Below, piece by piece: positions 4,997 through 37,423 of a DNA stretch of 40,399 nt. Numbering within the stretch: the stretch's first letter is position 1; each line of letters begins with the position of its first letter. The notes under the pieces are model-generated. The model ran no database searches. It had not been told where the DNA came from and was given only the letters and a program-made list of their open reading frames with translations. The position numbers and the translations under genes were made by a program. Origin of the DNA: a virus; the IMG/VR virus record IMGVR_UViG_3300036870_000049, positions 1 through 40,399 of that record. One strand, given 5' to 3'.

Positions 4997-6477
4997 CAGT
5001 GCGCTCCCGGACTAATATCGGCATCGAGGGCATAAAGCCGAGTCAACCCGTGCGTTGTAATCCGGAAGCACCTTTGACGAAACGAGCCGAGGCGCGTGGT
5101 GACCACCCGGTGGCGGTAGTCGCCGGAAACCCCCGCCGACATGGTCCGTCCCGCGTTGTAGGTGCGCCCGCCGTCGTCGGACCATGCGAGGAGCACCGGC
5201 CCCGGCGTCTGCGTGCCGCCGACCTCCATTTCGATCTCCGCCCGGCCGCAAAACGCGCGGGCGCCCCGGACACTGCCGACGACCAGGGGCGGCAACGTCG
5301 CCTGCCGGATGACTGCCACGCCGGCGTCGTTCGCCTGCATGGCGAGCGTGTAGAGCTGCCCCGAGGCACGGTCGCCGAACAAATGGAGCGAGTTGTTGTC
5401 GGTGGCGGCGGAGTACGCACGCCAGGGTCCGGAGCCGTTGGTGCTGGTCGATCGTTCGTGCCACACGCCGGTCCCGATGTCGTAAACCAGCGTCCGGTTG
5501 TCCGCCGTCGTCAGGCAGTAGAACAGGTGCCCGCGATAGGAATGGGTCAGGCCGACGAGGCCGATCGACTGCACTCCGACGATGGCCTCGATCGCGTGCG
5601 TGGAGATCCGTTTCGGGCTGTAGCCGTTGGCTCGGTAAACGATACCATCGAGCCCCACCCAAAACACCGAATTGTCGGCCCGGCAAACCGATAGCGGCGA
5701 GCCGGTGCCGCCATTGATCACGCCGCCCGTCTGACGGCGGAACGGAAAATCGGCGTTGCCGGCGTCATACCAGACCTCGAAACCGTTCTCGCCCACCGTC
5801 CAGATCTGATTGCGGTGCGCGATCACCCGGCGAATGACGTTCGGCGTGGCATCGGAGAAGACAAAGTCGAGCGCGTCGAAGCTGGAAGGATCGAGCAACC
5901 GCGAAATGAACCACTGCGCCGTGTCGCCCAGTGACGAAAACGCGAAATATCCGTCAACGTAACAAACCGACGACGCGCCGGGAAAGTCGGGATCGGTGAT
6001 CTGGTTCAGCGGATCGCCGGGGAGGTGCCCGCACGTCCAGGCGTGTGGCGCGACGCAGACCACCGCCGCCGTTGGGCCCGCGGCGATGGTCGGGAAGCTG
6101 TTCCAGGGCGACGTGCCCGCGTCGGCGGTGCCGACATCCGCGAGCATCTCCACGACCGGCGCTCCACCGGGGCCGAACCGCACCCGGTAAAACTTTGTTC
6201 CGCTAACGATATACAGCACGCCGACCATGTCGTCGTTCATCGCCAAAATCGGCCCGGTGCCGACCACGAGATACGGCACCAACGCCGGCGTCGAAACGAG
6301 CGCCGCGGCGGTGAGTGCGTCCGCCGGCTGCTGCTCCGCCATAAGGTTTATCAAGCGTTTTGCCGACAGCGGCAGCGACGGGTGCTCGTAGCTTTCGAGC
6401 GGGAACGGAATGCGCTGCATCCCGGTCTTCGGCTTGAGCGCCTGTTGCAGCGCCTGAAGGGTCGCGGAGTCGGACAT
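4996..6477 (-). CDS. Packaged-DNA stabilization / tail plug protein (P22 gp10-like)
   Basis: 493 residues, close to the length of P22 gp10 (472). The N-terminus (QRIPFPLESYEHPSLPLSAK, then LINLMAEQQP) matches the start of this family, in which a short leader is followed by 'R(L/V)xNxxxE'. Repeated beta-propeller-like segments follow, for example YIVSGTKFYRV, FWVGLDGIVYR, LTHSYRGHLFYCLT and WHERST. In P22, gp10 is a hub protein that closes the portal channel below gp4 and holds the DNA in. It lies between the tailspike genes and small virion genes, as expected for tail-machine proteins. Family assignment is good; the structure is inferred. Confidence 0.85.
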   Translation of the reverse strand: MSDSATLQALQQALKPKTGMQRIPFPLESYEHPSLPLSAKRLINLMAEQQPADALTAAALVSTPALVPYLVVGTGPILAMNDDMVGVLYIVSGTKFYRVRFGPGGAPVVEMLADVGTADAGTSPWNSFPTIAAGPTAAVVCVAPHAWTCGHLPGDPLNQITDPDFPGASSVCYVDGYFAFSSLGDTAQWFISRLLDPSSFDALDFVFSDATPNVIRRVIAHRNQIWTVGENGFEVWYDAGNADFPFRRQTGGVINGGTGSPLSVCRADNSVFWVGLDGIVYRANGYSPKRISTHAIEAIVGVQSIGLVGLTHSYRGHLFYCLTTADNRTLVYDIGTGVWHERSTSTNGSGPWRAYSAATDNNSLHLFGDRASGQLYTLAMQANDAGVAVIRQATLPPLVVGSVRGARAFCGRAEIEMEVGGTQTPGPVLLAWSDDGGRTYNAGRTMSAGVSGDYRHRVVTTRLGSFRQRCFRITTHGLTRLYALDADISPGAH

Positions 6478-22091: not shown

Positions 22092-22304
22092 TTATTGCCG
22101 CGTCACGCCTTCGGCATTGGCCGCGGCGCGCGCGACAACCCGGCCCAGCGACGCCAGCGCCGACTCGAGTCGCCCCGAATCGGAGTCGGGCGCCCGAGTC
22201 GCGGTCTCGGTGTCGCGGGAAAGTCGGGCCTCCAGCGCCGCGACACGGCGCTCCAGACGCTCGATGTGCGTGTCCCGGTCTGGTGATTTTCGCCAATGGA
22301 ACAT
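22092..22304 (-). CDS. Small coiled-coil protein, hypothetical
   Basis: 70 residues with heptad-like HIERLERRVAALEARLSRD at 13-31 and a second helix after a Ser/Asp-rich turn (ASLGRVVARAAANAEGV). The gene contains five GANTC sites within 39 bp (22162-22200), coding for the turn. No clear ribosome binding site upstream. Other frames are also open here, so I give moderate confidence. Position just ahead of the terminase genes. Confidence 0.5.
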   Translation of the reverse strand: MFHWRKSPDRDTHIERLERRVAALEARLSRDTETATRAPDSDSGRLESALASLGRVVARAAANAEGVTRQ

Positions 22305-22372
22305 GACAGGAACATAGTGCGGAAACGCCCGGAAAACAACGGTTTCCCGTGTGTCAGACTGATGATTTTTCG

Positions 22373-25664: not shown

Positions 25665-27065
25665 TTACGCCGTGACCGCCAACCGCGCGCGCTCGACCTC
25701 GGCGAAGGTGCGGCCGTCGCTCTCCAGCGTGGCTTCGGCACCAGCGAACGCCATCCAGCGGCGGATGGCGACGTCCACGTATTGCGGCGAGATCTCGATG
25801 GCGTGGCAGACGCGGCCGGTCATCTCGGCGGCGATGATGGTCGTGCCGGAGCCGACGAAGGGGTCGTAGACCGCCTGTCCGGGACTGGAGTTGTTCTCGA
25901 TCGGGCGGCGCATGCACTCGACGGGCTTCTGGGTGCTGTGGCCGGTTTCACTGGTGTTGTGTTCAATGTTCCAGGTGGTCGTTTGCTTGTGATCACCCGA
26001 CCAATGACCGTTCGCACCCTTGCGAACAGCATACCAACAGCACTCGTGCTGTGAATGATAATGGCCCCGACTCAGGACAAACCGAGATTTCACCCAAACC
26101 AGATGCGTGCGGACCTCAAGCCCAGCTAGTCTTAGATTGTCAGCGACAGGGCCGCCCTGAAGCCAGTTATGCCAAACATACGCCACGTCGCCAGGGAACA
26201 GCACCCACGCGTCTGACCAGTCGGAGCGGCCGTCGTTGGCCACCGCGCCTGTTGCGCGCCCTCCGGACTTGCCACCAAGCACGTCGTCACGCCACCCCGC
26301 CAGATACTCCACTCCATACGGCGGATCGGTGACCATTAGGTGCGGCTTCACGTCCGCCAGCGTCTTCTCAACGCACGGGGCACTCGTTGCATCCCCGCAC
26401 ACCAGCCGATGACGCCCGAGCAGCCACACATCGCCCAGGACCGTCACCGCCTCCGCCTGGACCTCCGGCACGTCGTCGGGGTCGGTGTTGCCCCCCGCCG
26501 GGCCGAACAGCTTATCGACCTCCAGCGGATCGAAGCCCGTGAGGTCGAGGTCGAAGCCCATGTCGCGCAGGTCGCCCAGTTCCAGCCGCAGGAGGTCGTC
26601 ATCCCAGCCCGCGTCCTCGGCCAGCCGGTTGTCCGCGATGACGTACGCCCTACGCTGAGCCGCCGTCAGGTGCTTCAGCTCGATCGTGGGCACCGTCTCC
26701 AACCCGAGCTGCTGCGCCGCCATCAGGCGCCCGTGCCCGGCGATCACGCCGGCGTCGCCATCGGTCAGGATCGGGTTGGTGAAACCGAACTCGCGGATCG
26801 AGCGAACGATTTTGGAAATCTGTGAATCGGAATGGGTCCTTGGATTATTTTCGTAACCACGAAGCTCGTCGGTTTTCACCATCCGGTAGCGCGGAAACCG
26901 GGCGGCCATGGCCTCGCCGTCCGCTGCTTCACGCGCGCGGGGAGTCAATTTGGGTGGCGGCGAGGGGCGGCCGGCGCCCGCGCGCCGCGCGCCGGCGGGC
27001 TCCGGCGTTCGTTCCGGAGAATTATCGACCGGTTTCTTCTTCGCCGTCATCTCCGTCACTTTCAT
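25665..27065 (-). CDS. ParB-domain fused DNA methyltransferase (beta class, N6-A or N4-C)
   Basis: 466 residues. The ParB/sulfiredoxin-like domain lies at about 60-150, with ENNPRTHSDSQISKIVRSI and VIAGHGRLMAAQQLG. The methyltransferase domain shows catalytic motif IV DPPY at 247-250, then STQKPVE (377-383) and the AdoMet-binding motif I DPFVGSGTT at 401-409. The IV-before-I order is that of beta-class enzymes, which include CcrM and HinfI (GANTC). The specificity of this enzyme cannot be read from the sequence. It would methylate phage and perhaps host DNA. It is the last gene of the leftward early operon, but it has its own palindrome over the start codon. A second Met at codon 6 is possible. 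Confidence 0.92.
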   Translation of the reverse strand: MKVTEMTAKKKPVDNSPERTPEPAGARRAGAGRPSPPPKLTPRAREAADGEAMAARFPRYRMVKTDELRGYENNPRTHSDSQISKIVRSIREFGFTNPILTDGDAGVIAGHGRLMAAQQLGLETVPTIELKHLTAAQRRAYVIADNRLAEDAGWDDDLLRLELGDLRDMGFDLDLTGFDPLEVDKLFGPAGGNTDPDDVPEVQAEAVTVLGDVWLLGRHRLVCGDATSAPCVEKTLADVKPHLMVTDPPYGVEYLAGWRDDVLGGKSGGRATGAVANDGRSDWSDAWVLFPGDVAYVWHNWLQGGPVADNLRLAGLEVRTHLVWVKSRFVLSRGHYHSQHECCWYAVRKGANGHWSGDHKQTTTWNIEHNTSETGHSTQKPVECMRRPIENNSSPGQAVYDPFVGSGTTIIAAEMTGRVCHAIEISPQYVDVAIRRWMAFAGAEATLESDGRTFAEVERARLAVTA

Positions 27066-27144: not shown

Positions 27145-28050
27145 TCACCGGGGGAGGTATTTCGCGGAGGAATCACCCGGCCGAGCGTGCGTATACCGCG
27201 TGGTGGTGGTCAAACTGGCATGACCGAGCGTCGCCTGGACGACGTGCACCGGGGCGCCGCGCGTGAGGCTGTGACTGGCATGGCTGTGCCGGAAGTAATG
27301 CGGGGAGATTTCGCGGGGCAGGTTCGCGCGCTGCACGGCTTTCTTGACCGTGACCCAGACATCCCGCCGCCCCATGGCAACGCCGCGTTTGGCCGTGCTG
27401 CGACTCCGGAACACCGGATCGTCCGGGCCATCCAGCCGAAGCTTGAGCCCGAGAAGCTGCTCGGCCATGAACGCGGGGATCAGCACCTCGCGCGTCTTGC
27501 CGCCCTTGCCGAACACCGTCAGTTGCGCCTCCCCGCCATCGCGTGGGGTCACGTGACGCCAGCGGAGGCCGGACGCCTCGGAGATCCGCAGGCCGGCGAT
27601 GTAGAGCAGCCGGAGGAGAGCGTTGTCCCGCTTGTTCCGCAGGACCCCCAGCAGCTTCGTCATCTGTTCCTCGGTGACGATGCGCCGCGCCAGTTGGTCC
27701 TCGATCGGCGGCATCGTGACCGCCGCCGCGACATTCCACTGGAGGTAGCCGATCTTGTGCGCGAAGCTGAACAGCGATCGGACGGCCGAGAGCCGGCGGG
27801 CCACGCTCGCGGGCTTATGGATGGCCTCCATGGCCAGGCCCCAGCCCTGGATATCGCGCAGGACCACCTCGCGGAGCGGCTTCGGGACCGCGCGCCGGAA
27901 ATGCTCCACGTCATTGCGGAACGCGCTCAGGGTCATCTGCGATCGGTACCGGCCGAGCCACAGGTCGATCATCTGCTCATCGGAGGACGCCTGCGCCGGG
28001 GCCTGGGCTGACGGGTCATAAGGAACGACGGCGGCGGATTTCGTTTCCAT
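27145..28050 (-). CDS. Tyrosine recombinase, XerC/D-like
   Basis: 301 residues, the size of XerC/XerD. N-terminal SAM-like core-binding domain to about 115, catalytic domain after. Catalytic residues are all visible: Arg155 (AGLRISEASGLRW), Lys182/185 (FGKGGKTREV), His251-x-x-Arg254 (SPHYFRHSHASH), His277 (LGHASLTTT) and nucleophile Tyr286 (TTRYTH). It lies in the leftward early operon, far from attP, whereas the integrase at 36377-37423 is adjacent to attP. It may resolve genome dimers, act on a second site, or mobilise something else. No matching recombination site was recognised nearby. Confidence 0.92.
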   Translation of the reverse strand: METKSAAVVPYDPSAQAPAQASSDEQMIDLWLGRYRSQMTLSAFRNDVEHFRRAVPKPLREVVLRDIQGWGLAMEAIHKPASVARRLSAVRSLFSFAHKIGYLQWNVAAAVTMPPIEDQLARRIVTEEQMTKLLGVLRNKRDNALLRLLYIAGLRISEASGLRWRHVTPRDGGEAQLTVFGKGGKTREVLIPAFMAEQLLGLKLRLDGPDDPVFRSRSTAKRGVAMGRRDVWVTVKKAVQRANLPREISPHYFRHSHASHSLTRGAPVHVVQATLGHASLTTTTRYTHARPGDSSAKYLPR

Positions 28051-28703: not shown

Positions 28704-29024
28704 CTAATTGATCGAGCGAACTGACCCGTCATCGGGATCTGGCTTCTTCGCCAGGCTATTGGGGTTCGCGAACAAATGCCCCAACCTTTTCAGGGCCGGT
28801 CCGGCATCCGGGATACGCTCGGGTCCGGCCACTTGCAGCACCATTTTATCGTCGAAACACAGGAGGGTTTCACACTGGAGGCACATGCCCATCGCCCCCG
28901 GCTGCTGCTCCCCGGCCCAGATATAACCGCCGCCATCCGGCATGAAGATCCCACAGCAAGGCAGCAGACGACCTTCCGACCGTGGCCTCTTCGGCCGGCG
29001 CGGCGTTACTCTCCTTGCAGCCAT
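28704..29024 (-). CDS. Cys-containing hypothetical protein
   Basis: 106 residues. Basic N-terminus (RRVTPRRPKRPRSEGR), then Cys23/24 and Cys48-x2-Cys51 plus Cys56 (MCLQCETLLCF), possibly metal-binding. The C-terminus has PDAGPALKRLGHLFANPN. It directly follows the GANTC-rich intergenic region in transcription order. No family recognised. Confidence 0.6.
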   Translation of the reverse strand: MAARRVTPRRPKRPRSEGRLLPCCGIFMPDGGGYIWAGEQQPGAMGMCLQCETLLCFDDKMVLQVAGPERIPDAGPALKRLGHLFANPNSLAKKPDPDDGSVRSIN

Positions 29025-29616
29025 GCGGCACCTCCCAACAGGACCGTGTGGTCAGAGGCCGGGTCGGATCTCGCCATCCGATTCGGCCTCGCTCTTATGT
29101 CGGGTATCGGAAATTAGACGATAACGACAGGGGCATATTGTGCATTAACTGAAACGCCGTCAAGCGCCGTTGCGGTGTTTCCCCGCGCTCGACGTCTGGT
29201 CAGTCCCGCGCGCTCTCCGCCGGCACGTTGTTCCCGAGCCGTCTTGCCTTCCCGCGGGGGGTCAGCCGCCGCTTGGCGGCGTAGGGGGGGCGCAGCCCAC
29301 CTTACATGACGGCCCGACCGGCGCGCAGCGCTCCGCAAGTAATGATTCTTTCTTAAAGACGGGATGTTCGGACACTGAGTCCGACTACAAAGACAGTGAG
29401 TCCATGTCTTTTCGCCGCCAGCCGCCACGGACCGCCGCATGCGAAACGAAATGCCGGATCGTTACCGCGATTTGACTCAGAATCGGGTCCGCGATTCGCC
29501 CGCGGGGACTGTTCTCAAGGGATTTTCAGAGGGGAATCGGACCGATTCGGAGGTCGGCGCAGCCGTTCGCGCCGGGGATCACCTGGTTGCCACGCGGCGC
29601 GCGCCAGGCGCGTAAC
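29025..29616. other. Large intergenic region, candidate origin/control region
   Basis: About 590 bp between the probable replication gene and the next early gene, with no convincing coding sequence on either strand. It contains a locally less G+C-rich part (29340-29560) carrying eight GANTC sites and several palindromes, described separately, and a small hairpin (GCCGCC...GGCGGC) at 29265-29280. Location directly after a replication-type gene and site density make it the best candidate for an origin or regulatory hub. Confidence 0.5.
29344..29548. promoter_or_regulatory. GANTC cluster with palindromes
   Basis: Eight GANTC sites start at 29344, 29377, 29398, 29474, 29480, 29493, 29534 and 29544. 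For base composition like this genome's, chance gives less than one in 205 bp. GACACTGAGTCC (29371-29382) and GACAGTGAGTCC (29392-29403) are direct repeats 21 bp apart, two helical turns. Two inverted repeats share the arm GAATCG/CGATTC, at 29480-29497 and 29534-29548 (the latter a perfect GAATCGG-A-CCGATTC), with centres about 52 bp apart. These fit binding sites for a protein such as a GcrA-like regulator or an initiator. Confidence 0.65.
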
Positions 29617-30453
29617 TCAGGCGGGCGCGGGTCGGGTCCTGTTCTTCGGGGCGGGGGGGCGGCTCAGGCCACCGTCGCGCAGCACGAGGCCGAACAAGGC
29701 GGCGAGGCGAGCGCCGCCAGTGAGCGCGCGGAATGCCGGAGGCGGCGGGACGGGATCGGCTCCCTCGACATCCGCCGGCAGTGGGACGGGTTCCTCATCC
29801 ATGGTGGCAATGTAGATGTTCGCGTCACGCCACCAATTGTCGCCGTCGCGATAAGGGACGCTCATGACCTGGAACAGGCCGGCCCCTTCAAGCAAGCGGG
29901 TGGCCCGCTGGATGTGGCGGGCGCAGTATTTCGCGACCGTCGCGATGCCCTTCAGGCCAGCCCAGGTGAATCCCCGTGCCTTTTCCAGGACAACCAACGC
30001 CTCGGCCGTCGCTTCGAGGCACCGCGCTGATACGCCCCGACCGACTAGGGTGGGGATCACGTCCCGAACGCGGTTCATGAAGCCGCCCATTGGCGTCTTG
30101 CGCGGCAGCGACTCCGGAAGAAGGGTTTTCAGGATTTTGAGGCGCTCGATGGGAAGATCAGCCGCGGCCTGGACCGAGGGCGGGAGCGCGGAGGCGATGC
30201 CCTCGAAACGGCCCGCCGGTTCCTCGCCGCGCGCGATCGCCGCCGCCACGCCACGCCTGCGCGCCTCCCTGGCGGCGTCCGTGGTTTCAGCGGGAGGAAC
30301 GGCTGGCGGAGGCAATGGTGGCGCGATCCGTACCTCGACGCCGGCGAGCGTGGCCGCCTCATTGAGCGGCGCCAGACCCGCGGCCTCGCGCTCGGCTGAG
30401 ATTGCCTTGCGAGCGTCAAGCTCAAGCCATTTTTTGCGGAGATAATCGCTCAT
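29617..30453 (-). CDS. Probable replication protein with winged-helix domain
   Basis: 278 residues, start overlapping the previous stop as ATGA. After an Ala/Pro-rich N-terminus, residues about 100-200 contain SVQAAADLPIERLKILKTLL, then SARCLEATAEALVVLEKARG and FTWAGLKGIATVAKYCARHI followed by QRATRLLEGAGLFQVMS. That pattern is a helix-turn-helix followed by a 'RatrlLexaGLfqv' wing, as in plasmid/phage replication initiators that use winged helices. The C-terminus is Pro-rich. It sits just upstream of the GANTC-rich region. I assign replication by pattern and place; it could instead be a transcription regulator. Confidence 0.65.
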   Translation of the reverse strand: MSDYLRKKWLELDARKAISAEREAAGLAPLNEAATLAGVEVRIAPPLPPPAVPPAETTDAAREARRRGVAAAIARGEEPAGRFEGIASALPPSVQAAADLPIERLKILKTLLPESLPRKTPMGGFMNRVRDVIPTLVGRGVSARCLEATAEALVVLEKARGFTWAGLKGIATVAKYCARHIQRATRLLEGAGLFQVMSVPYRDGDNWWRDANIYIATMDEEPVPLPADVEGADPVPPPPAFRALTGGARLAALFGLVLRDGGLSRPPAPKNRTRPAPA

Positions 30454-30761
30454 GGCGCCATCGCCGCCGCGCGCGCATCGAGCAGCTCGTCCCGCGTCAA
30501 CGGGCGCCGCTCGATGTCATTCCGGTTCGCCGCTTTCGGGACCACGAACGCCGCCGGGCCGAGTTGCGCGCGCGTCGCCGCGAGCTGCGCCGGGGCCAAC
30601 ACGGCGATCGGGCGCACCGGGTATTTCGCCGACAGCGCGAACGCGGCGCGGTTTCTCTCGAATGCCTGTTCCGCCAGGGTCGGGGGAAGAGGTCGGTGGA
30701 TCGGAGTCGGAGTCGGAGTCGGAGTCTGAGTCGCGTGCGGGGGGAGCTTCCCCTCGGCCAT
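30450..30761 (-). CDS. Hypothetical protein with Thr-Pro repeat
   Basis: 103 residues. Residues 11-20 (TQTPTPTPTP) are encoded by the hexanucleotide repeat at 30703-30733. The rest contains PTLAEQAFERNRAAFALSAK and LAPAQLAATRAQLGPAAFVV. Overlaps both neighbours by ATGA or TGATG. Function unknown; the coupling to the replication gene suggests a related task. Confidence 0.65.
   Translation of the reverse strand: MAEGKLPPHATQTPTPTPTPIHRPLPPTLAEQAFERNRAAFALSAKYPVRPIAVLAPAQLAATRAQLGPAAFVVPKAANRNDIERRPLTRDELLDARAAAMAP
30703..30733. repeat. Hexanucleotide repeat creating five evenly spaced GAGTC sites
   Basis: GGAGTC repeated four times followed by TGAGTC. The five GAGTC (GANTC) sites start at 30704, 30710, 30716, 30722 and 30728, exactly 6 bp apart. 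The unit keeps the frame of the Thr-Pro repeat on the minus strand, so copy number could vary without a frameshift. Confidence 0.9.
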
Positions 30762-31374: not shown

Positions 31375-31625
31375 GGCGGCAGCCCCAGGATCAGGTCGAT
31401 CAGATCGAGTTGGGCCGATTCCCGCCGAACCCGGAACCGCGCGCGCGCCGAGGCCCGCGTGATCGGCGGGGTGCGTTGCGCGGCGGGGTTCCGGTCGGCG
31501 TTCCGTGCCGCCTCGCGGGAGCAATCGACACAGAGGTCGGGCGCCTTGCGGCGGCGCGAAAGGAATTTGGTGTCCGGCCCGCGGCCGGCGCAGGCGGCGC
31601 ATTCGCGGGCGCGCGGGCGGGTCAT
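31371..31625 (-). CDS. Small zinc-ribbon protein
   Basis: 84 residues. Cys9-x2-Cys12 (ECAACAGRG) and Cys32-x2-Cys35 (LCVDCSRE) form a zinc ribbon, followed by a basic Arg/Ala-rich part and a C-terminal LDLIDLILGLPP. It overlaps the GcrA-like gene upstream and the next gene downstream by 4 bp each. A nucleic-acid-binding or regulatory role is possible; not assigned. Confidence 0.7.
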   Translation of the reverse strand: MTRPRARECAACAGRGPDTKFLSRRRKAPDLCVDCSREAARNADRNPAAQRTPPITRASARARFRVRRESAQLDLIDLILGLPP

Positions 31626-31993
31626 GGACGCGAACCGCCGGACCCGGCGGCCTCCGACTCTGACGGCAGGGGCGGCAACGTCGAAGCCGGGACCGGAATC
31701 CTCCGCGCTCCCCCGGAAGCGGCGCGGCGCGGATCATCGCCGTCCCGCATGATCGGTGAGGGCCGCGCCTCCAGGATGCCGAGCGCCTTGAGCCGGTGCA
31801 CCTTGCCGAGCAGCGCGTTCTTGGTGAGCCGAAGCTGGGCCGCGAGCGCCTCGGTCTTCTCCCCGGCATTCCAGCCGGCACACAGGGCGAGCAACCGCTC
31901 AAGGGGCCAGGTGGCGGTCACGTGAGGTGCCAGGATGGTCCGCAATTCAGCCTCGGTGGGCCTCGGGCAAGAGCGTGGCGCGCTTCCATTCAT
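31622..31993 (-). CDS. GcrA-like cell-cycle regulator family protein
   Basis: 123 residues. Residues about 29-70 (WPLERLLALCAGWNAGEKTE, then ALAAQLRLTKNALLGKVHRL) match the N-terminal domain of GcrA, in which W..ER...L...W..G.s...IA..L...TrNAviGKvhRL is conserved. ARPSPI after it is also seen in phage relatives. In Caulobacter and relatives GcrA binds DNA and sigma70 and activates promoters with CcrM-methylated GANTC. The C-terminus here is Pro/Ser-rich and does not resemble the sigma-binding domain by eye. The early operon also encodes a beta-class methyltransferase, and the genome has GANTC clusters. Confidence 0.8.
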   Translation of the reverse strand: MNGSAPRSCPRPTEAELRTILAPHVTATWPLERLLALCAGWNAGEKTEALAAQLRLTKNALLGKVHRLKALGILEARPSPIMRDGDDPRRAASGGARRIPVPASTLPPLPSESEAAGSGGSRP

Positions 31994-32561: not shown

Positions 32562-32795
32562 TCATTCCGCGGCCTCGACGAGAGGCTTGGGGGATGGCGG
32601 GGTGGCATCCCACAGGTCCGGTCGTATGTCCCTCGCCGGAATGCCCGTCAGCGCCTCAAGCCTATGGATGTGCCGCGCCGGAACGCGGGTCCATTGCGTC
32701 ACCGCGGACGGCACGACGCCGAGGTGTTCAGCCACCTTCGTCGGCCCTCCGGCCGCCTCCAAGACTCGCACTAGCGCAGCATCATAATTGGGCAT
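32562..32795 (-). CDS. Cro/YdaS-like repressor
   Basis: 77 residues from the ATG at 32795. LVRVLEAAGGPTKVAEHLGV followed by VPSAVTQWTRVPARHIHRLE is a Cro/YdaS-type helix-turn-helix, with the short 'xxAVTQWxxVPAxr' recognition segment typical of this family. It is divergent from the XRE repressor, with two operator copies between them. The promoter (32802-32830) has its -10 end exactly 6 nt from ATG and no ribosome binding site, suggesting a leaderless mRNA. As Cro, it would favour the lytic path by blocking the opposing repressor. Confidence 0.85.
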   Translation of the reverse strand: MPNYDAALVRVLEAAGGPTKVAEHLGVVPSAVTQWTRVPARHIHRLEALTGIPARDIRPDLWDATPPSPKPLVEAAE

Positions 32796-32801
32796 GGGTT
32801 G

Positions 32802-32830
32802 AATTTTGCAGACTTCCTGCACTGAGTCAA
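32802..32830 (-). promoter_or_regulatory. Leftward early promoter with operator O1 in its spacer
   Basis: On the minus strand: -35 TTGACT (32825-32830), 17-bp spacer, -10 AAAATT (32802-32807), then 6 nt to ATG. The operator TGCAGGAAGTCTGCA (32807-32821) fills the spacer. A GANTC site (32824-32828) overlaps the -35 box. It should drive the Cro-like gene and the whole early-left operon. Confidence 0.75.
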
Positions 32831-32846
32831 CCCTATGACCTTCTGC

Positions 32847-32876
32847 ATGGCAGGAAACCTGCATAAAGCCGATTAT
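32847..32876 (+). promoter_or_regulatory. Promoter of the XRE repressor with operator O2
   Basis: -35 ATGGCA (32847-32852), 18-bp spacer, -10 GATTAT (32871-32876), then 6 nt to ATG. Operator O2, GGCAGGAAACCTGCA, lies at 32849-32863 over the -35 and spacer. A perfect 13-bp palindrome GCCGAT-T-ATCGGC (32868-32880) covers the -10 and may be a second protein's site. Confidence 0.6.
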
Positions 32877-32882
32877 CGGCCT

Positions 32883-33308
32883 ATGTCAGAGACGCTTCAC
32901 AAGACACAGGTCGGTAGACGACTCCGTGATGCAATCAAGGTTCTTGGTATTTCTCAGACAGAGGTCGGGAAAGACCTCGGTGCCTCCCCGAGCAAAATTG
33001 GCAATTGGATACGCGGGGATCATTACCCGTCCGAATGGTTCGTTAAACAGTTCTGCGACCGTTACGGTATTACGACCGAATGGATTTATCGCGGAATTGT
33101 AACCGGCATGGCGAAACGGTTGGCAGACCCACTGTGGAACATGGAACTGTCTGCTTCAGCGAAAGATGATCCCGCGCCGGAACCTCCACAGCGGTTAACT
33201 CCACGGAAGGAACGCTCTCCTCCGCGCCCTACGCCGGGGGGAAGCGTCGCGGCAAGTGACGCGTGCGAAGTCGCCAACGTCGTCCGATGGCCGGGGGTGC
33301 CGGCGTAA
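32883..33308 (+). CDS. XRE-family phage repressor (CI-like, no peptidase domain)
   Basis: 141 residues from the ATG at 32883. Residues 6-60 (KTQVGRRLRDAIKVLGISQT, EVGKDLGASPSKIGNWIRGD, YPSEWFVKQFCDRYGITTEW) are an XRE helix-turn-helix with the typical tail. The C-terminal 70 residues are Pro-rich and lack the Ser/Lys peptidase domain of LexA/CI, so induction by RecA-style self-cleavage is not expected. It is divergent from the Cro-like gene. It is the best candidate for binding the four TGCAGGAAANCTGCA sites. The -10 hexamer ends 6 nt before ATG without a ribosome binding site. Confidence 0.85.
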   Translation: MSETLHKTQVGRRLRDAIKVLGISQTEVGKDLGASPSKIGNWIRGDHYPSEWFVKQFCDRYGITTEWIYRGIVTGMAKRLADPLWNMELSASAKDDPAPEPPQRLTPRKERSPPRPTPGGSVAASDACEVANVVRWPGVPA

Positions 33309-36219: not shown

Positions 36220-36575
36220 CGGACCTGACTCGTGCGCAGGTGGCCGAGGCAATGGGTGTGTCCGAACGCACCCTGCGGCGCCTCTTGCCTAAAATCCCCG
36301 ACCTGCGTTGCAATCGCGTCGGCCGCAAAATCACCTTCTCGCCGCAGGACGTAGCCCTCATTCAGGAAGCCGTGCGATGCCCCTACACTACCGCAAGCGC
36401 GGCGAAGTCTGGCACGCGCGTGGCCGTGTCCGCGTCGGGACGCAAACCGTCATCGTCGGGGAGTTCAGCACAGGAGCGCGTGCGCGAATTGACGCGGAAG
36501 CGATCGGAGCGGCCAGGGAAGCCGAGATCCGGGGTGATATTCTTGATGGCGCGGCGGGACGAGCCCGGCGACTGA
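36216..36575 (+). CDS. Excisionase-like HTH protein
   Basis: 119 residues from a GTG at 36216. The N-terminal 50 residues (TRAQVAEAMGVSERTLRRLL, PKIPDLRCNRVGRKITFSPQ, DVALIQEA) form a MerR/Xis-type winged helix. It is adjacent to the integrase as expected for Xis, which bends attachment-site DNA and promotes excision. The last 66 codons lie over the integrase 5' end in another frame (199 bp overlap) and are low-complexity Ser/Arg-rich, so the functional part is probably the first 55 residues. Confidence 0.75.
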   Translation: MTDLTRAQVAEAMGVSERTLRRLLPKIPDLRCNRVGRKITFSPQDVALIQEAVRCPYTTASAAKSGTRVAVSASGRKPSSSGSSAQERVRELTRKRSERPGKPRSGVIFLMARRDEPGD

Positions 36576-37423
36576 CGATCGGCGATTGCCTTGAGGCATA
36601 CCTGTCCCGGCCCGGCGGCGTGAAATCCTACGACGTCGCCCGCGTCGCTGAGTTCAACGAGATTCTCGGCCATCGTCCGGTGACCGAGGCCCTCGCGGGC
36701 TGGCGATCCTGGCTTGGGGCGCGCGGGGGCAGGCAGAGGCCATCGAGCGTCAACCGCTGGCGCGCGATCCTCCAGGCCGCCCTTAATCACGGTTGCGCGG
36801 CGCATGAAGTGCCAGCGCCCAGGCTGCCCGGCATCAGAGGATCATCGGGAGAGGAGCGGGCGATCTACCTGCCGGACGACCAGCGCCAGCGGTTGCTCGC
36901 GGCCTACAACCCGCACGCCGCGGGCCCGGTGCTGCTACTCGCGTACCAGGGACTGCGCACCCAGGAGGCCCTCCAGCTCGACTGGCGATGGGTCGATTTC
37001 ACCCGCCAGACAATCCACCTGATCGCGTCCGAGACGAAAGCCGGGAAAGGCCGCACCGTCACGATGCACCCGCGGGTCGATGCGCTGTTGTTCGGCCTTT
37101 GGTCCGCCGCCAACGAGCCGGCGATCGGCCGCGTCTTCCTGAGTGCGCGCGGACGCCCCTATGCTGACACCAGGGGCCGCGGCGACCGTCAACAAGGCGG
37201 CAACCCATTGGCGCGCGCGCACGCCACGGCGTGTGCCATGGCCGAGGTGACAGGTTTCCGTGTGCATGACTGGCGCCACGATTGGGCTACGCGGATGGTG
37301 TGGGCGGGCACCGATCTGCCGACGCTGATGCGCATTGGCGGATGGGCCAGCCTGCGGATGGTGCAACGCTACGCGACGACGTCCGCCGATCGGATGGCCG
37401 AGGCGATCAGGAGGCTGGCGTGA
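36377..37423 (+). CDS. int: Integrase, tyrosine recombinase
   Basis: 348 residues. The ATG at 36377 fits the usual N-terminus (YRKRGEVWHARGRVRVG), a phage-integrase arm-binding-like start. Catalytic residues: Arg194 (YQGLRTQEALQLDW), Lys221/224 (TKAGKGR), His297-x-x-Arg300 (VHDWRHDWATRMV) and Tyr332 (MVQRYA). The second box has Trp323 (IGGWASLRM) in place of His, a common variant. It catalyses site-specific recombination with the host tRNA-Val(GAC). The stop lies next to the first arm-type repeat of attP. Confidence 0.93.
   Translation: MPLHYRKRGEVWHARGRVRVGTQTVIVGEFSTGARARIDAEAIGAAREAEIRGDILDGAAGRARRLTIGDCLEAYLSRPGGVKSYDVARVAEFNEILGHRPVTEALAGWRSWLGARGGRQRPSSVNRWRAILQAALNHGCAAHEVPAPRLPGIRGSSGEERAIYLPDDQRQRLLAAYNPHAAGPVLLLAYQGLRTQEALQLDWRWVDFTRQTIHLIASETKAGKGRTVTMHPRVDALLFGLWSAANEPAIGRVFLSARGRPYADTRGRGDRQQGGNPLARAHATACAMAEVTGFRVHDWRHDWATRMVWAGTDLPTLMRIGGWASLRMVQRYATTSADRMAEAIRRLA

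Follow-up and report, generated by a model that had tools for sequence, protein, structure and literature searches.

The window, by which we mean the whole 40,399-nt stretch of a virus record analysed here, carries genes for tail, portal and terminase proteins. It also encodes a YqaJ-type recombinase and two tyrosine recombinases, together with a divergent repressor pair. This gene content is that of a temperate phage, and the best explanation takes it to be podovirus-like. An early leftward operon runs from the repressor region through genes for a Cro-like protein, a helix-turn-helix protein, a GcrA-like protein (31622-31993) and others to a probable replication gene (29617-30453), which is followed by a noncoding gap with a cluster of GANTC sites. 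The first gene of this operon (32562-32795, minus strand) encodes a small Cro/YdaS-like protein, read from the sequence and with no family match; its start lies about 35 bp from the -35 element of the probable early promoter TTGACT-16-CAAAAT (32803-32830, minus strand), so the transcript is possibly leaderless. The divergent gene (32835-33308, plus strand) encodes a CI-like helix-turn-helix repressor (Pfam HTH_31, PHROG repressors). A second integrase is located at 36308-37423. Upstream of the terminase genes, a promoter-like TTGTTT-17-TATGTT block (about 22310-22370, minus strand), noticed by eye and strongly conserved in the related contig L084, is a possible late promoter.

The GcrA-family gene of the early operon (31622-31993, minus strand), which was absent from the earlier note, encodes a protein of 123 aa with the N-terminal DNA-binding domain of GcrA (residues 1-45; PF07750 / NF050816), as identified by Pfam, PDB and profile searches. 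The PF07750 score is 26.5 bits, just under the cutoff of 26.9, and that of the copy in the related contig L002 is 27.7 bits; among PDB sequences, the GcrA DNA-binding domain matches best (E 0.011). With the protein used as a profile, 53 of 299 Pseudomonadota genomes give a match; 20 of these matches were examined, and all encode a full-length GcrA that has the CxWPIGDP...FCG...YC region at its C-terminus, a motif of host GcrA that is absent from the phage protein. The PF07750 match spans positions 2-66 of the 155 in the profile, no match to the C-terminal sigma-70-interacting domain (108-173) is found beyond profile position 66 to 68, and the score against the NCBIfam GcrA equivalog (NF050816) is 22.6 versus 280. 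Since the sigma-interacting region is without a match, the phage protein is a GcrA-type DNA-binding domain and not a complete GcrA. A structure search with its predicted model gave no significant match.

The window also encodes a DNA methyltransferase with a ParB_N domain and a DPPY motif (25665-27065, minus strand), which adjoins a XerC-like recombinase gene (27145-28050) in the leftward operon and whose relatives also occur in phages that infect hosts like Streptococcus. It was rejected as a CcrM, with a score of 41.6 against the cutoff of 830 of the CcrM equivalog model; GANTC specificity is still possible for this enzyme, because unrelated phage enzymes can share it (PMC5537653).

GANTC is avoided in this DNA: 79 sites are found in the window against about 182 expected from dinucleotide shuffles, and with a ratio of 0.45 it ranks first in depletion among the 16 N-centred palindromes. 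In coding sequence, 22 genes together have 39 sites versus 62.8 +/- 6.1 in synonymous-codon shuffles, the lowest of 200 shuffles holding 46. GANTC avoidance overall with enrichment between genes is known from CcrM-bearing alphaproteobacteria (PMC3973325), and this avoidance and the GcrA domain indicate that the host is probably an alphaproteobacterium. Searches of bacterial genomes with the replication-like protein were empty, so no host genome was identified: neither 398 Pseudomonadota genomes nor 385 genomes of one class contain it, and 61 genomes of one order yielded only distant terminases.

Against this background, eight GANTC sites (29344, 29377, 29398, 29474, 29480, 29493, 29534 and 29544) lie within 205 bp (29344-29548), inside a 592-bp noncoding gap (29025-29616) flanked by leftward genes. 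The earlier note had reported these eight sites, and only two in the first kilobase of the window; all eight are at their positions, and the other two are at 25 and 583. Its figure of less than one site expected holds genome-wide (182 per 40.4 kb, or 0.9 per 205 bp) but not locally, where 2.0 sites are expected from dinucleotide shuffles of these 205 bp. Counted genome-wide against shuffled sequence, as the note had proposed, the density of the cluster beats chance. Eight sites per 205 bp were reached in none of 5000 shuffles of the gap, in none of 20000 uniform placements of the 79 sites and in one of 200 shuffles of the whole window, though the latter hold 184 sites, and when 60 short palindromes were scanned, a P of 0/2000 was obtained for GANTC and for an ATAT patch alone. 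The cluster is thus very unlikely by chance given the window-wide avoidance, and local composition softens this. Similar clusters at random places, which the note had said would speak against a special role, are not what the other dense spots represent: both (22162-22200 and 30704-30732) prove to be coding repeats, made of Asp-Ser codons or of (ACTCCG)n encoding Thr-Pro, and they were ruled out as similar control regions. At the other end of the gap, a strong 15-bp hairpin containing GANTC 29080 (29055-29090, plus strand) lies near the start of ORF 28704-29024, with a weak sub-threshold FinP match at 29018-29096.

The noncoding region 29205-29616 (minus strand), downstream of the replication-like gene, aligns at 81-82% DNA identity with two IMG/VR contigs, L002 and L084, and is clearly conserved. 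Scans of viral_contigs at the DNA and protein levels found no contigs with the region beyond these two, and a search of its DNA against phages gave no match; four genome-scan matches to its DNA pattern, in unrelated organisms, were treated as chance. Most 30-bp segments are 0.80-0.90 identical across the three phages. As to the presence of the cluster in related phages, five of the eight GANTC sites are kept in both relatives (29344, 29377, 29398, 29474 and 29493), and 29480, 29534 and 29544 are lost. Two 12-bp direct repeats of GGACTCANTGTC (29371-29403, minus strand), 21 bp apart and with one GANTC each, are present in all three phages. They are the repeats that the earlier note had described; in the window they occupy 29371-29382 and 29392-29403 with 11 of 12 identical bases, and one copy forms a perfect dyad, TCGGAC-N5-GTCCGA. 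The AT-rich stretch TTAAGAAAGAATCATTACTT (29337-29356, minus strand), which contains GANTC 29344, is identical in all three phages and constitutes a candidate unwinding element. In the segment 29474-29497, the sites 29474 and 29493 are kept in both relatives, the latter with its central base changed to give GAGTC, and 29480 is not.

The shared-arm palindromes on which the earlier note laid stress fare less well. Their GAATCG/CGATTC arms do form two inverted pairs in the window (29480/29492 and 29534/29543), and the pair centres, 52.5 bp apart from the coordinates, are separated by 5.0 turns at 10.5 bp, as the helical-spacing claim had it. Three of the four arm sites are nevertheless gone in both relatives, so the arms were discarded as general functional units; the pair 29534 and 29544 (29534-29548) is absent from both and occupies the part of the region with the lowest conservation, where segment 29521-29550 is only 0.47 identical. 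More generally, the GANTC sites are not significantly better kept than other palindromic pentamers of the region (5/8 versus 44%), and selection on GANTC itself within the region is not proven by these alignments.

GANTC may be avoided in coding DNA and simply tolerated in this AT-richer gap, with a few lineage-specific sites adding apparent density. The general distribution would fit, as GANTC is denser in noncoding than in coding DNA of the window (3.7 versus 1.7 per kb) and alphaproteobacterial intergenic regions are generally GANTC-richer (PMC3973325). So would the marginal excess in the relatives, whose five sites are weakly above local expectation (P 0.04 and 0.02) and less so with the repeat pair counted once (P 0.14 and 0.09). 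However, local shuffling of 29205-29616 gives 1.9 sites expected versus the eight observed in the window (P 0.0002), and five sites are conserved together with the surrounding block. We regard relaxed avoidance and chance as an unlikely explanation.

The gene adjoining the conserved region (29617-30453, minus strand) is a probable replication gene, as suggested by weak profile similarity to winged-helix/replication-initiator proteins (HTH_36, O-like), for which the L084 copy scores E 0.0083 (HTH_36) and E 0.06 (O-like). An AlphaFold model of the protein was set aside as unreliable (pLDDT 42). The earlier note's placement of the cluster after a probable replication gene stands for the position, the conserved noncoding region directly adjoining this gene, and is weaker for the gene itself, which has only a weak initiator-like helix-turn-helix. 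An iteron/Rep-type origin would have repeats and an AT-rich tract beside an initiator gene. Here there are two 12-bp repeats 21 bp apart, a 20-bp AT-rich tract and the adjacent weakly initiator-like gene; the repeats are only two in number, and no skew shift is seen at the site. The region may act as a replication origin.

A second GANTC element, also absent from the earlier note, is found at the other end of the operon, where a site (32824-32828) overlaps the -35 of the early promoter within TTGACTCANTG. The same TTGACTCANTG occurs in L002 at 5102-5112, and although the immunity region around it in L002 is largely unrelated to that of the window, GTTGACTCANTG is kept; the counterpart promoter of L002 went unrecognised in the promoter scan, and its element was read by eye. 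The element resembles the direct repeats (GACTCANTGTC), and of their common part GACTCANTG the window and L002 each have exactly three copies, one at the early promoter and one in each repeat. The promoter site does not fit YGAKTCK (a GcrA-activated promoter would have a methylated YGAKTCG/K site within a sigma-70 promoter), the cluster shows no clear enrichment of this motif (4 of 8 sites versus 27 of 79 window-wide), and no sigma-70 promoter was recognised in the cluster region by the promoter scan.

That GACTCANTG is found in both phages at three corresponding functional positions, paired 21 bp apart at the control region and single at the early promoter, is what would be expected if these elements were operators for a methylation-insensitive phage regulator, GACTC being incidental and the extra GANTC sites lineage-specific noise. 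The bases flanking GANTC are conserved too, GANTC itself is without excess conservation and three of the eight sites are lost in the relatives, all of which such operators would accommodate. They leave unexplained, however, the three further conserved sites (29344, 29474 and 29493) within the same 150 bp and the GcrA domain in the phage operon, as well as the variation of the central N at 29493 while GANTC stays. An operator function of this kind is a possibility that we consider somewhat unlikely.

The region might also serve another process, such as a site for the XerC-like recombinase encoded about 1.3 kb away, a structured RNA or a leader, with GANTC incidental. Its dyads are suggestive in this respect, as are two tandem GC hairpins noticed by eye at about 29263-29302, the second of which keeps its stem despite changed sequence (CGCCGC-CAA-GCGGCG versus GGCGCC-TCC-GGCGCC in L002/L084). 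However, the repeats are direct and without a clear core site, no Rfam family matches at gathering level, and RNA folding of the window's region is no better than that of shuffles (z -0.3); a structured RNA was rejected on the latter two grounds, and such other uses seem very unlikely overall.

The features assembled here are reminiscent of the GcrA/CcrM system of Caulobacter and other alphaproteobacteria (PMC3667746, PMC3973325), in which GcrA binds promoters in a GANTC-methylation-dependent manner (Caulobacter, PMC3667746). Shared with that system are genome-wide avoidance with denser intergenic GANTC, GANTC at or near the promoter -35/-10 and a GcrA-type DNA-binding domain. The phage differs in that its protein is without a match to the sigma-interacting domain of host GcrA and in that its methylation and binding are predicted. 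GcrA peaks have about two sites per kb (PMC3667746, PMC3973325), a density that the eight-site cluster far exceeds. Phage-borne GcrA homologues are known from phiCbK-type phages (PMC3556154) and Agrobacterium phage Atu_ph08 (gp5; PMC6630229), which like this phage carry a GcrA family protein; the phiCbK homologue is longer than that of the window, and most of it matches GcrA. The podovirus MW202785 (Manatee Spring) shows the same early order of small regulator, GcrA homologue and replisome organizer and is likewise GANTC-depleted (55 versus 182). Its GcrA homologue, an unannotated gene (MW202785.1, 31944-32606, minus strand) beside the annotated replisome organizer, is a full-length protein that carries a SID-like motif at its C-terminus, and unlike the window MW202785 has no GANTC cluster. 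Nor was a cluster found in the other GcrA-encoding phages searched (most of Yong-M4-211 and 50 kb of phiCbK), and a survey of alphaproteobacterial phages reported no asymmetric distribution of GcrA sites (PMC9437464).

Two further comparisons concern replication. The origins of repABC replicons are GANTC-rich (PMC6090056), so that GANTC is there also concentrated at the replication control region of alphaproteobacterial replicons, and RepC binding is reported to be methylation-independent (PMC6090056). Here the replicon is a phage with another replication protein, 29617-30453 having no RepABC match that would mark it as a RepC initiator, and the origin role of the region is putative. In Sinorhizobium phages, CcrM-like GANTC methyltransferases sit in or near replication modules (PMC5537653); these are likewise alphaproteobacterial phages with a GANTC code near replication modules, but they encode the GANTC writer, whereas the present phage encodes a reader-type domain and a ParB-domain methyltransferase.

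Our leading reading, which we hold tentatively and below even confidence, is that the conserved block serves control or replication and that GcrA-type readers couple it to methylation by host CcrM. The earlier note's suggestion of a link to the host methylation cycle gains from the GcrA domain in the early operon, the avoidance elsewhere, the conserved region and the GANTC over the -35; it loses from the disappearance of most palindrome-pair sites and from GANTC not being preferentially conserved. Direct repeats and an AT-rich tract beside a replication-like gene make replication and/or early gene control the most likely role of the region. Host CcrM would methylate its GANTC sites, and the methylated sites would be read by GcrA-type proteins, namely host GcrA and the phage protein that has the DNA-binding domain only. 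The related GACTCANTG element over the -35 would bring the early promoter under the same reading, and avoidance elsewhere would prevent titration of the readers. The phage could thereby distinguish fully methylated DNA, as in a resident prophage, from newly copied DNA, and early transcription or replication could be timed to the host cycle. A more specific version, which is speculative and which we rate as improbable, is that the stripped-down phage GcrA acts as a competitor of host GcrA, or takes its place, at methylated GANTC sites of the early promoter and the replication region, gating replication by telling prophage from new copies.

That phages carry GcrA homologues has been known since phiCbK, and the targets of these proteins are not established. 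The phage described here brings together, in a small genome, a limited number of cis sites and a single candidate reader that are open to experiment, and would allow the direct question of whether phages read the methylation clock of their hosts.
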